From Candidatus Eremiobacteraceae bacterium (GTDB taxonomy: Bacteria > Vulcanimicrobiota > Vulcanimicrobiia > Eremiobacterales > Eremiobacteraceae), in NCBI GenBank assembly GCA_036511855.1, contig DATCBN010000093.1, positions 1-64,000 on the forward strand: a stretch of 64,000 bases of DNA, read 5' to 3'. The notes below the pieces were generated by a model. It was not told where the DNA came from. It saw nothing but the letters and a program-made list of their open reading frames with translations, and did not search any database. Positions 41,503 through 60,467 of this stretch are shown piece after piece. Each line of letters begins with the position of its first letter. Within the stretch, counting starts at the first letter, position 1. Position numbers and translations under genes: made by a program.

Positions 41503-41833
41503 GCGGAACCTGCCGGTCGGGCGCGAACATACGTTTGGAGGCTATTCCTGATTGTTTCCCCGCGCCCTTGTGGATTGGCTTGTGGGCGGCGTGTGCACGA
41601 ACTGCTAATAACCATAAGAAGTTGTGCATCGCAGCAAATGCGTGAGCGCCTGTACTAGGGTGAGCATCGCTCACCCATTTGGGCAAGCGATGCTTGCCCT
41701 AGTACGACAACGGTTGTGCGACAAAAGTTGTACGCACGAGCGGCGCTCCAGGGTCGTTTGAAACTGAGCGCGAAAAGCGAAGACCCGTTACCCTCACACA
41801 CGCCCTTATGATAAGGAAGACAGCCGAACCGCA
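41503..41833. other. 331-bp divergent intergenic region dnaE/sdhA
   Basis: Holds one family A repeat (41652-41705) and presumably the divergent promoters of dnaE and the sdh operon. I find no convincing -35/-10 pair. A TATGAT-like hexamer (about 41807-41812) lies shortly before sdhA. No RNA gene or additional ORF is supported. Confidence 0.5.
41652..41705. repeat. Family A palindromic repeat, complete element
   Basis: Outer inverted repeat GTACTAGGG...CCCTAGTAC encloses GGGTGAGCATCGCTCACCC (41658-41676), an ATTT spacer and GGGCAAGCGATGCTTGCCC (41681-41699). This copy shows the full 54-bp architecture best. Confidence 0.9.
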
Positions 41834-45595: not shown

Positions 45596-45674
45596 GTACT
45601 AGGGCAAGCATCGCTTGCCCAATTTTTTTTGGGCGAGCGATGCTCGCCCTAGTACGAGATGCTTGCCCTCCTAC
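45596..45674. repeat. Family A palindromic repeat plus half copy
   Basis: GTACTAG, core GGGCAAGCATCGCTTGCCC (45602-45620), AAT8, core GGGCGAGCGATGCTCGCCC (45631-45649), TAGTAC, then a half core (45658-45674). On the plus strand the first core plus T8 is an intrinsic terminator for the sdh operon. Convergent gap sdhE/SDR. Confidence 0.92.
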
Positions 45675-50070: not shown

Positions 50071-50124
50071 TGTAGGGGGGTAAGCAACGCTTGCCCCTTG
50101 TAGGAGGGCAAGCATCGCTTGCCC
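50071..50124. repeat. Family A palindromic repeats, two cores
   Basis: GGGTAAGCAACGCTTGCCC (50078-50096) and GGGCAAGCATCGCTTGCCC (50106-50124) in direct succession, each preceded by a TGTAGG/TAGGA flank. Located between two co-directional genes, pckA and the P-loop gene. Confidence 0.88.
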
Positions 50125-52348: not shown

Positions 52349-52409
52349 GTACTAGGGCAAGCATCGCTTGCCCTAGTTTTTTTTGGGCAAGCGATGCTTG
52401 CCCTAGTAC
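52349..52409. repeat. Family A palindromic repeat, complete element
   Basis: GTACTAG, core GGGCAAGCATCGCTTGCCC (52355-52373), TAG followed by T9, core GGGCAAGCGATGCTTGCCC (52385-52403), TAGTAC. The plus strand reads hairpin plus T-tract, a terminator for the DUF4383 gene. The right end overlaps the trpA stop codon. Convergent gap. Confidence 0.92.
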
Positions 52410-56859: not shown

Positions 56860-57443
56860 GAGACCAGCCCCGCGGCGCGTAAGACGTTCTTCAACATGTG
56901 CGGCCCGGATTTTGTGAGGATGGATTCGGGGTGGAACTGCAGACCGTACGTCGGATGGCTTTTGTGGCGCAGCGCCATGATCAGGCCGTCATGCGTCCGC
57001 GCGCTGATCGTGAGCTCCACCGGAAGATCGCCCTCGTCGACGATCAACGAGTGATATCGGCCAGCTCGCACGCGCAGCGGCAAACCTTCGAACGGCGGCC
57101 CGCCGTCGTGCACGATCTCGCAGGCGCTGCCGTGAACGGGCTCCGGCGCGTGCTTCACCGACGCGCCGAAGGCAACCGCGATCGCCTGGTGTCCGAGGCA
57201 GATGCCGAGCACCGGCACGCGGCCGCTCAACGCGCGGACCACGGCGACGGAAAGACCCGCGCTCTCCGGACGGCCCGGACCCGGTGAGATGACGAGAATG
57301 GCCGGCGGCTGCGCCTTGGTTTTATCCATGTCGATCTCGTCCGCGCGCACGACGGACGGCGAGAAGCCGAGCGCGCCGAATCCTTGCGCAAGATTGTATG
57401 TGAAGGAATCGTAGTTGTCGACGATCAGCACATCGCGCGTCAT
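56856..57443 (-). CDS. trpG: Anthranilate synthase glutamine amidotransferase subunit
   Basis: 195 aa class I glutaminase. N-terminus VDNYDSFTYNLAQGF, nucleophilic Cys in GICLGHQAIAVAFG, and His-Glu dyad in YGLQFHPESI. Supplies ammonia to TrpE; may also serve para-aminobenzoate synthesis. ATG 57443 overlaps the trpE stop (ATGA). Confidence 0.96.
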   Translation of the reverse strand: MTRDVLIVDNYDSFTYNLAQGFGALGFSPSVVRADEIDMDKTKAQPPAILVISPGPGRPESAGLSVAVVRALSGRVPVLGICLGHQAIAVAFGASVKHAPEPVHGSACEIVHDGGPPFEGLPLRVRAGRYHSLIVDEGDLPVELTISARTHDGLIMALRHKSHPTYGLQFHPESILTKSGPHMLKNVLRAAGLVS

Positions 57444-58867
57444 GCGGGAAGGCCTCCCGCTGCCATCGCAAGCGCGGCCAACGTCGCGCCGAGCTTGGCT
57501 CGGCATTCACGGTCTTCGCCCTCGGGATCCGACGCTTCGACGATGCCGGCCCCCGCCCGGAGATGGAACGCGCCGCCGTAGGCGTGCATGCTGCGCAAAG
57601 TGATGCATGAATCCAAACTGCCGTCAAAGCCGAACCGGAGAACGGCGCCGGCATAGAATCCACGCCGCGTTCCTTCAAGCTGCGCGATGAGTTCGAGCGC
57701 CCTGACCTTCGGTGCGCCGCTCACGGTGCCGGCCGGAAACGCGGCCGCCATCAAATCGAACGCATCGAGCTCCGGCTTGAGCTCGCCGCTCACTTCGGAC
57801 GCCAGATGCATGACGTGGCTGAACCGTTCGACGTCCATGAATTCGTCCACGCACACGCTCCCCGGCGTACACACGCGTCCAACGTCGTTGCGCCCGAGAT
57901 CGACGAGCATCGTGTGTTCGGCGCGCTCTTTAGGATCGCGACGAAGTGCGGCGGCGCGCTTGCGGTCGGTCTCCGGGTCGTCGCTGCGCGCGCGGGTGCC
58001 CGCCAGCGGACGCACGATGGCCCGGCGTCCCTCGAGTTTCGCGAGCAGCTCCGGCGACGAACCGAGGAGCTGGCCCCAGCCGAGATCGATGAAGAACATG
58101 TACGGCGACGGGTTAATGGAGCGCAGCGCGCGGTAGACGTCGAAAGGATCCGCGTCGCTTTCAACCGTCCGACCCTGAGACAAGACCACTTGAAAGACCT
58201 CGCCGTCGTAGATAGCAGCCTTAGCGGCGGCGACGTTCGCGCAGAACCGGGCAGCGCCGGGTCCATCTGAGGTCGCGGCAAGTTCGCGCGGAGGTTGCAG
58301 ATCCGACCCGGCGTATGCGATGAAAGGTGCGGCGGTCAAAGCCGCGACGATGTCCGCGTCGTCGCGCGACGTTCCGTCTTCGGCGGCCAACGTCGTGATG
58401 GTCGCACGATGCGTGAAGTGGTCGAATACCACGAGCGTCTCGGGCACGACGAGGTGAAGGTCGGGCATAGGATCGTGCGCGCGCGGCAAATGCGGCAAGC
58501 GCTCGAGGTAGCCGGAGAATTCATGCGCAGCGGCCCCGAAAAGCCCGAAGAACGGCGACCGTCTGATATCATCGGCGGCAGGCGACAACGACTCGAGGAC
58601 CGAGCGGCATGCGTCGAGCGGCGACGCGCCGGTGGCCCGCAGCTCCCCGCCGTCGATCGCGGTCGATACTTCTCCATCGAAAACGCGGACTTCGCCGCGC
58701 GCGCCCACGCCGATCAACGACCTGCGCGCTCCGACACCCGCGCCGAGTGCGCTCTCAAAGAGCATGGCCGGACCTTTGCGCGCGCGCACGATGGCGAGAT
58801 ATGCGCCTATCGGCGTGACGGCGTCTGCAAGGACGTCTCGGTGGACGATGCGGCGGAAAGTGTTCAA
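57440..58867 (-). CDS. trpE: Anthranilate synthase component I
   Basis: 475 aa from TTG 58867, preceded by GGAGG with 5-nt spacing; the ATG at 58900 lies inside a repeat and lacks a signal. The chorismate-binding domain has SPELLAKLEGRRAIVRPLAGTRARS, DLGRNDVGRVC and AAFPAGTVSGAPKVRAL. First structural gene of trpEGDCFBA. A hairpin plus U-tract lies about 63 nt upstream, preceded by a leader ORF with three Trp codons, so control by attenuation is predicted. Confidence 0.97.
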   Translation of the reverse strand: MNTFRRIVHRDVLADAVTPIGAYLAIVRARKGPAMLFESALGAGVGARRSLIGVGARGEVRVFDGEVSTAIDGGELRATGASPLDACRSVLESLSPAADDIRRSPFFGLFGAAAHEFSGYLERLPHLPRAHDPMPDLHLVVPETLVVFDHFTHRATITTLAAEDGTSRDDADIVAALTAAPFIAYAGSDLQPPRELAATSDGPGAARFCANVAAAKAAIYDGEVFQVVLSQGRTVESDADPFDVYRALRSINPSPYMFFIDLGWGQLLGSSPELLAKLEGRRAIVRPLAGTRARSDDPETDRKRAAALRRDPKERAEHTMLVDLGRNDVGRVCTPGSVCVDEFMDVERFSHVMHLASEVSGELKPELDAFDLMAAAFPAGTVSGAPKVRALELIAQLEGTRRGFYAGAVLRFGFDGSLDSCITLRSMHAYGGAFHLRAGAGIVEASDPEGEDRECRAKLGATLAALAMAAGGLPA

Positions 58868-58884
58868 CGTGGCCTCCGGTCCCC

Positions 58885-58909
58885 GTAGGAGGGCAAGCAT
58901 CGCTTGCCC
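58885..58909. repeat. Family A palindromic repeat, single core, between trp attenuator and trpE
   Basis: GTAGGA plus core GGGCAAGCATCGCTTGCCC (58891-58909). It lies in the untranslated region between the trp terminator and the trpE start codon. Confidence 0.88.
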
Positions 58910-58929
58910 ATTTTTGGCATATCGCGGGC

Positions 58930-58967
58930 AAAAGAAAACGGGCCCTCGATTTGCGATCGAGAGCCCG
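58930..58967 (-). terminator. Intrinsic terminator in the trp leader (attenuator)
   Basis: Minus-strand stem CGGGCTCTCGAT (58967-58956) and ATCGAGGGCCCG (58950-58939) pair over 12 bp with one G-U, loop of 5 nt, followed by TTTTCTTTT (58938-58930). Located between the leader ORF and trpE. Confidence 0.9.
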
Positions 58968-59004
58968 CCGAATCTTTGGCGCTATGCGCCTTACGCTGGT
59001 GTGG

Positions 59005-59127
59005 TCAGCTTGAGCGACTCACACCCGCATTGAATCGGGCGGGCGTGACCCACCACCACGAGGACGCAGTTACGGAATGGGCAAGCGATGCTTGCCCTAG
59101 TACGGCTTGCCCTAATACATTTGTCAT
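59005..59127 (-). CDS. trpL: trp operon leader peptide with three consecutive Trp codons
   Basis: A 40-codon ORF from ATG 59127 to TGA 59005. Codons 24-26 (59058-59050) are TGG TGG TGG. It ends 37 nt before the terminator stem. Residues ~5-18 ([15 protein letters not shown]) are encoded by the palindromic repeat, so only the part from about residue 19 is original leader. No Shine-Dalgarno precedes ATG 59127 and no other in-frame start exists, so the real initiation site is uncertain. The role would be to let ribosome stalling at Trp codons report tryptophan-tRNA supply. Confidence 0.65.
   Translation of the reverse strand: MTNVLGQAVLGQASLAHSVTASSWWWVTPARFNAGVSRSS
59019..59048 (-). promoter_or_regulatory. 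trp leader 1:2 hairpin, mutually exclusive with a 2:3 pairing
   Basis: TCACGCCCGC (59048-59039), directly after the Trp codons, pairs with GCGGGTGTGA (59028-59019) over 10 bp with one G-U. The second strand can instead pair, as GGTGTGAGTC (59026-59017), with GACCACACC (59006-58998). A ribosome stalled on the Trp codons would mask the first strand and favour the alternative. Confidence 0.55.
59079..59118. repeat. Family A palindromic repeat plus half copy, inside the trp leader ORF
   Basis: Core GGGCAAGCGATGCTTGCCC (59079-59097), TAGTAC, then a half copy GGCTTGCCCTAATAC (59104-59118). It lies between rplQ and the Trp codons and encodes part of the leader peptide. Confidence 0.88.
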
Positions 59128-59150
59128 CGGACCGGTTGGTGCGCTTTTCA

Positions 59151-59162
59151 GGATTGCAATCC
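59151..59162. promoter_or_regulatory. 12-bp perfect palindrome between rplQ and the trp leader
   Basis: GGATTGCAATCC is its own reverse complement and begins 7 bp after the rplQ stop codon. It contains TTGCAA, a possible -35, but no matching -10 is seen. It could be an operator for the trp transcript. Confidence 0.3.
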
Positions 59163-59168
59163 CTTCTC

Positions 59169-59525
59169 TTACGACTGCAGCAGCTCGAGCTGCGCCATTT
59201 CCGCCGCGTCGCCCTTTCGGATACGAGTCCGTATGACACGCGTGTAGCCGCCGCTCCGCCCCGCCAAGCTAGGCGCGATCACTTCCATGACCTTTTTCGC
59301 CACCGCCTCCGATGTGAGGTACGAAGCGACGATGCGGCGGCTGGCGAGATCGCCTTTCTTAGCGCGCGTGATCAAACGCGATGCGACGCGAGAGACTTCT
59401 TTCGCCCGGATGATCGTGGTCTCGATCTTGCCATGCGTGAACAGCGAGGTGGCGAGATTGCGGAGCATCGATCGACGGTGGTCGTCGTTCCGGCCGAGGC
59501 GTTTTACGTCTTGTTTGTGTCGCAT
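59169..59525 (-). CDS. rplQ: 50S ribosomal protein L17
   Basis: 118 aa. Starts MRHKQDVKRLGRNDDHRRSM and contains LRNLATSLFTHGKIETT, the L17 signature. Located 6 bp after rpoA, its standard place at the end of the alpha operon. Confidence 0.98.
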   Translation of the reverse strand: MRHKQDVKRLGRNDDHRRSMLRNLATSLFTHGKIETTIIRAKEVSRVASRLITRAKKGDLASRRIVASYLTSEAVAKKVMEVIAPSLAGRSGGYTRVIRTRIRKGDAAEMAQLELLQS

Positions 59526-59531
59526 GTCCGC

Positions 59532-60467
59532 CTACTGTGCTTTCAAGCTGAGGTTGCGCTCGACGAGTTTCTCTTTGATCTCGTCGACGGACTTCTTGCC
59601 CAAGTTGCGCATGTTCATGATCTCTTCTTCCGTCTTCTGCAACAGCTCGGAGATCTTTGTGATGCCTGCCCGTTTGAGGCAGTTGTACGACCGAACCGAA
59701 AGATCCAACTCGTCGACCGGAATATCCCAACCGGCGAACGGTTTGGCTTCTTCGACGGGCGCCTCCACTTCGGCGCGCCCGCTGAACGTGACGAACAGAC
59801 CGAGCTGTTCCTGGAGAATGCCGGCCGCGGTGCTCAACGCCTCGTCGGGCGTGAGACTGCCATTGGTCTCGATCTCGATGAGCAGGCGGTCGTAGTCGGT
59901 GACCTGTCCGACGCGCGTGTCTTCGATTTGATACGCGACCTTGCGGATGGGCGTGAAGATCGAGTCCACCGGGATGAGCCCGATGACGTGTTCGACGTTG
60001 CGCTGCTTGTCCGCGGTGACGTAGCCGCGCCACTTCTCGACGCCGATCTCCATGAACAGCCGAGCCTTCTTGTCGGAGAGCGTCGCGATGTGATACGCCG
60101 GGTCGAGCAGTTCGATATCCGCATCCGGCACGATGTCCGAAGCGGTGACTTCCCGCTCGCCTATGGCCTCGATGCGCAGCACTTTCGGCTCGTCCGAACT
60201 CAGCTTCAGCGGCAGACCTTTGAGATTGAGGATGATGTTGGTCGTATCTTCGACCACGCCCGGTATGGTGGAGAATTCGTGGAGCACGCCGTCGATCTTG
60301 ACGTACGTGACCGCGGCCCCGGGCAGCGACGAGAGAAGGATCCGCCGCAGGCTGTTGCCTAGCGTGATCCCAAACCCGCGCTCCAGCGGTTCGATCGCGA
60401 ACTGCGCGTAATTATCGCGGCGCTCCCGCACCTCGATAGTCGCCCGTTGAAATTCCAAAACTGCCAT
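59532..60467 (-). CDS. rpoA: RNA polymerase alpha subunit
   Basis: 311 aa from ATG 60467 (GGAAGGGA upstream); a start nine codons earlier is unsupported. N-terminal assembly domain with [23 protein letters not shown]-terminal domain with [23 protein letters not shown] and [14 protein letters not shown], which contacts UP elements and regulators. Confidence 0.98.

Follow-up and report, generated by a model that had tools for sequence, protein, structure and literature searches.

The trp genes of a Candidatus Eremiobacteraceae bacterium stand behind a ribosomal-protein operon, an arrangement that raises the question of how their transcription is controlled at the junction, and whether a short ORF with a run of Trp codons and the terminator that follows it serve that control. 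The window, by which we mean the whole analysed stretch of 64,000 nucleotides, carries on its minus strand, in this order, rpsD, rpoA, rplQ, a 40-aa ORF, a terminator, trpE, trpG, trpD, and further trp genes; rplQ is the final gene of the alpha ribosomal-protein operon and lies 41 nt upstream of the leader ORF. We conclude with high confidence that the trp operon is preceded, at its junction with the alpha ribosomal-protein operon, by a ribosome-mediated transcription attenuator. An initial annotation had proposed such attenuation, and the proposal is supported by relatives that share the Trp-run leader, the terminator, and the mutually exclusive pairings. The features of the region are listed below, from upstream to downstream.

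59169 to 59525, minus strand: rplQ (ribosomal protein L17), from Pfam PF01196 (E=8.6e-34) and gene order
59005 to 59127, minus strand: trp leader peptide ORF, 40 aa, with WWW, from homologous Trp-run leaders at 12/12 family trp loci
59079 to 59097, minus strand: copy of a repeated palindrome (GGGCAAGCATCGCTTGCCC) within the leader ORF, 343 exact copies in the genome
59050 to 59058, minus strand: three consecutive Trp codons, the putative regulatory codons, from the sequence
59048 to 59054, minus strand: strand 1, GGUGGGU, overlapping the Trp codons and pairing with strand 2 (1:2 hairpin), from the minimum free energy (MFE) fold
59038 to 59044, minus strand: strand 2, GCCCGCC, pairing with strand 1 or strand 3, as best complement of strand 3 and from relatives
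58963 to 58969, minus strand: strand 3, GGCGGGC, common to the antiterminator (2:3) and the terminator (3:4), from the sequence and relatives
58940 to 58950, minus strand: strand 4, AUCGAGGGCCC, 3' arm of the terminator, from the sequence and a terminator scan
58930 to 58970, minus strand: intrinsic terminator hairpin with T-tract, from the terminator scan (14 pairs)
58891 to 58909, strand not given: second copy of the same palindrome, between the terminator and the trpE start, from the sequence
57440 to 58867, minus strand: trpE, first gene of the operon predicted to be controlled, from Pfam PF00425 and PF04715

The ORF at 59127-59005, its three consecutive TGG codons (59058-59050), and the terminator, which the initial annotation had placed between rplQ and trpE, are all found there in the window sequence; the terminator is strong (14 pairs, 58970-58930), with a stem at about 58970-58939 and a T-tract at 58938-58930. 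The sole in-frame ATG, GTG, or TTG of the leader ORF is at 59127, and its translation in the window is not assured, since a clear Shine-Dalgarno sequence is absent and the rplQ stop is 41 nt away. The coding sequence of the leader is interrupted, with its frame unbroken, by the palindrome copy at 59079-59097. This REP-like palindrome has further copies in the window (52355-52403, 50106-50124, 45602-45620, 41681-41699, and others), often about 42 bp apart, and occurs in 34 and 20 exact copies in two genus mates, whereas the family genomes scanned from other genera hold none. The start of trpE is probably the TTG at 58867, chosen from the sequence and preceded by a Shine-Dalgarno sequence CGGAGG (58878-58873), which was preferred to an ATG at 58900 that sits within the repeat.

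Read-through at this attenuator would, as we infer, respond to tryptophan. When tryptophan is short, a ribosome would stall at the Trp codons and cover strand 1, upon which strand 2 (GCCCGCC) would pair with strand 3 (GGCGGGC), the terminator would be blocked, and RNA polymerase would continue into trpE. When tryptophan is plentiful, the ribosome would run over strand 2 and block the 2:3 pairing, so that the 3:4 terminator would form and transcription would stop; once the ribosome is past, strand 2 may re-pair with the Trp-codon strand.

Leaders in the family and the class

The window's family (f1) comprises 14 genomes in the collection, in 10 of which trpE was found, and in each of these 10 trpE is preceded by a short ORF that carries 2-4 consecutive Trp codons, for example MNNVVLQNAWWWWVRARHAD and MKTHAQAWWWWASARRLAHVQALT. 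With one trpD locus (G008) and one contig that ends inside the leader (G012) added, a leader with 2-4 consecutive Trp codons is present at 12/12 family genomes with a trp locus. The leader of G012 reads ...DAWWWANARL, and the trp genes of this genome are taken as present from the leader itself, the contig stopping there. In G008 (L152), a WW leader stands right after rplQ and is followed by trpD; trpE was not found in this genome, and trpB is present. The two family genomes with no match to TrpE, TrpD, or TrpB, G001 and G007, have no leader after rplQ, which gives 0/2 without trp genes. The alignment of relatives for Trp runs, terminators, and pairing, which the initial annotation had suggested as a check, therefore came out in favour of its reading, and the terminator before trpE is kept across the family. 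Both G001 (L149) and G007 (L155) are near-complete, one of them belonging to the window's own genus, and they are possible tryptophan auxotrophs. TrpB matches with one in-frame stop each were also seen at G005:C6:7702-8907, G011:C10:21149-22369, and G013:C100:3-503, where the stop may simply mark the end of the gene or may reflect a broken gene or a fault of assembly.

Beyond the family, a Trp-run leader with a terminator before trpE was found in 1/41 genomes from other families of the class (L021, G029). At that locus, a MRLVLSWWWQVSVRSGR leader and a terminator precede a trpE that is unlinked to rplQ, with a different core sequence, and the leader perhaps had an independent origin. The linkage of rplQ to trpE is present in 12/41 of these genomes, none of the 12 having an attenuator, as well as at three named loci, L075 (WPS-2 MAG), L039, and L061. 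Across the rpoA-rplQ region, f1 and its class share about 70-76% DNA identity with L075, which makes a placement in Eremiobacterota (Vulcanimicrobiota) likely. The initial annotation had further suggested that the mechanism was retained in a deep-branching lineage, which the distribution does not show: a single case among 41 genomes would fit a gain in this family as well as a loss in the others. As wider background, for which a genome contig scan that returned mostly other phyla was used, 8/80 diverse named trpE loci pass loose leader criteria, although only about three look plausible. Short WWW-containing ORFs upstream of trpE were seen in other phyla, at L048 (Planctomycetota MAG) and L094 (Desulfobacula).

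Proposed link to the ribosomal-protein operon

In most family genomes, rplQ is directly upstream of the leader, and in several the two reading frames are in contact. An ATGA overlap joins the start of the leader to the stop of the gene before it in G008 and G010, where that gene is rplQ, and in G003, where it is an unrelated one; in G004 and G011 the leader start abuts the rplQ stop as TAATATG. The leaders of the family are preceded by weak ribosome binding sites, and the ORF is conserved. Taken together, the overlap or abutment of stops in five genomes and the weak ribosome binding sites suggest coupled translation, in which ribosomes finishing the upstream gene would often translate the leader. 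At the junction itself, transcription is predicted to run on from rplQ into the leader, which ribosomes leaving rplQ would translate.

From this a wider scenario can be drawn, which we put forward tentatively, as plausible and somewhat short of probable: the trp genes of the family would have no dedicated main promoter and would rely on transcription that starts in the alpha ribosomal-protein operon, a ribosome on completing rplQ would re-initiate on the leader and act as the sensor of tryptophan, ribosome production would be the input and the supply of Trp-tRNA the gate, and coupling to a translating ribosome would take the place of the RNA polymerase pause by which classical attenuators are synchronised. 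A serious possibility, if not quite the probable case, is that a genuine attenuator is served by a promoter of its own close to the 3' end of rplQ, which would make it a stand-alone trp leader of the ordinary kind, the link to the ribosomal-protein operon being incidental. It is favoured by the exceptions to the arrangement, as a divergent gene in G005 (among other genes) and an opposite-strand DUF4383 gene in G002 separate rplQ from the leader, which calls for either a local promoter or long read-through in these two genomes. However, a scan of window positions 58850-60000, which non-standard promoters would escape, gave no sigma-70-like promoter, and in G004, G008, G010, and G011 the stop codon of rplQ overlaps or abuts the start of the leader, which leaves no untranslated 5' end.

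Mutually exclusive pairings and the predicted switch

The leaders of the family have a common layout, in which the last Trp codons (GGUGGGC/U) are followed after 3-4 nt by GCCCGCC, and later by GGCGGGC, which opens the terminator stem. Pairs were counted on hand-anchored strands, because a whole-leader MAFFT alignment misplaces the variable middle of the leader. Strand 2 and strand 3 pair at 7/7 positions, G-U included, in 10/10 full trpE leaders, and none of the 10 has, anywhere in its leader, a better complement of strand 3 than the 7-mer that lies at +13 to +18 relative to the first TGG (in one leader a neighbour ties with it); in the window, strand 2 begins 14 nt after the first TGG base. 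When G008 (+21) is counted, strand 2 lies at 13-21 nt from the first Trp codon. Dinucleotide shuffles reach 7/7 at the same spacing in 0.8-4.7% of cases per leader, figures that are not independent of one another since the leaders are related. Variation in the 2:3 pairing consists of one position that is U-G in one leader and another that is U-G in two and a U-A double change (from C-G) in one; the core pairs being nearly invariant, covariation is thin. Between strands 2 and 3, a stem that differs in most species extends the antiterminator, the window version being weak, and the arms of these apical stems match each other better than between-species swaps (permutation p about 0.015). The 1:2 pairing, through the GGUGGGC/U equivalent, has 7 bp in seven leaders with 3-4 Trp codons; in three leaders with 2 Trp codons it is weaker, with energies of about -5.5 to -7.2 kcal/mol. 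A DNA pattern of Trp run and strands 2 and 3 was tried as a detector and set aside, as it finds the known leaders but gives background matches like those of a reversed control.

In the window, the RNA 59060-58920 folds far better than its own shuffles (z = -6.2), and at full length the minimum combines the 1:2 hairpin with the terminator, at -66.0 kcal/mol vs -59.3 kcal/mol with 2:3 enforced. Before strand 4 exists, folding of the free RNA favours 2:3 in the window and in some relatives; read-through without any translation is therefore predicted there, and in the window the outcome depends on timing, as in other attenuators. A ribosome was also modelled on 11 leaders, in transcripts ending after strand 3, by masking a footprint that extends 16 nt upstream and 11 nt downstream of the first A-site base. 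The mean probability of the 2:3 pairing fell from 0.93, when the first Trp codon occupied the A site, to 0.50, 0.24, and 0.04 when the ribosome stood two, three, and four codons further along, values that depend on the assumption that it covers +11 nt from the A-site codon. In this model, 2:3 was held until the third or fourth codon in 4-Trp leaders, the second or third in 3-Trp leaders, and the second in 2-Trp leaders, with G008 (2 Trp, strand 2 at +21) as an exception to the trend. In the model, the antiterminator thus forms only as long as the ribosome has not moved past the Trp codons, whose number mostly sets how late the predicted switch occurs.

These results bear on three other readings of the region. 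It is very improbable that the hairpin and T-tract are a plain end terminator of the alpha operon beside a chance run of TGG codons: the terminator is indeed strong and sits right after rplQ, but in-frame Trp runs occur at 12/12 trp loci, strand 2 is kept within 13-21 nt of the first Trp codon, and the leader is absent where the trp genes are absent. That tryptophan is sensed by another RNA device, such as a T-box, TRAP, or a riboswitch, with the ORF unused, would fit the weak ribosome binding sites of the leaders, yet it is extremely improbable, as the conserved feature is the Trp codons and an Rfam search of the region gave no family, Trp_leader included, at gathering score, the weak E-value matches being to unrelated families. 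Hardly tenable, finally, is the pairing set of the initial annotation, with a hairpin at 59048-59019 as 1:2 and 59026-59017 with 59006-58998 as 2:3, which can be drawn in this one sequence but is not in the relatives, to which GCCCGCC:GGCGGGC is common, and of which the hairpin is absent from the predicted fold, while the second helix, present in the MFE fold, forms no more than an apical hairpin within the loop of the actual antiterminator; neither helix overlaps the terminator stem, so neither can prevent the terminator. For the attenuator preferred here, the predicted pairing of 59044-59038 with 58969-58963 supplies the antitermination step that the initial annotation could not trace.

Relation to known attenuators

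In the E. coli trp attenuator, the Trp codons lie within strand 1, as they also do here. The locus resembles E. coli trpL, the source of the four-strand model, in the tandem Trp codons of the leader peptide, strands 1-4, and the mutually exclusive 2:3 and 3:4 pairings (PMC1183508). Here, unlike in trpL, strand 2 is part of the leader ORF itself, in the window just 5 nt past the last Trp codon, the loop of the 1:2 hairpin is 3-4 nt long, there is no Rfam match, and the leader follows rplQ instead of opening an mRNA dedicated to the trp genes. The trp attenuators of Actinobacteria (Corynebacterium, Streptomyces), with the core gGCC-rGCy-GGCC, likewise have double or triple UGG codons, a GC-rich terminator with poly-U, and conserved complementary triples, but here the core is GCCCGCC-GGCGGGC-GAGGGCCC and the location is after rplQ (PMC1262725). 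The leader peptide attenuators of hisS in Firmicutes, for which the authors considered an independent origin, are also outside Proteobacteria and Actinobacteria, although they concern another amino acid, gene, and phylum (PMC2965389). A search of openly accessible papers turned up neither a description of attenuation for this phylum nor one of an attenuator placed between rplQ and trp genes. As far as the accessible literature shows, a trp attenuator of classical logic is new for this lineage, and it is a variant in its position and possible translational coupling.

Classical amino acid attenuation has its best documentation in Proteobacteria and Actinobacteria, and the finding adds to these an Eremiobacterota (WPS-2) lineage. 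The relatives form a natural series for comparing the number of Trp codons, the spacing to strand 2, and the predicted switch point, and the class provides the contrast of the same rplQ-trpE linkage without an attenuator. If the coupling to rplQ is real, an amino acid pathway would be tied to the transcription of ribosomal-protein genes while keeping its amino acid feedback.
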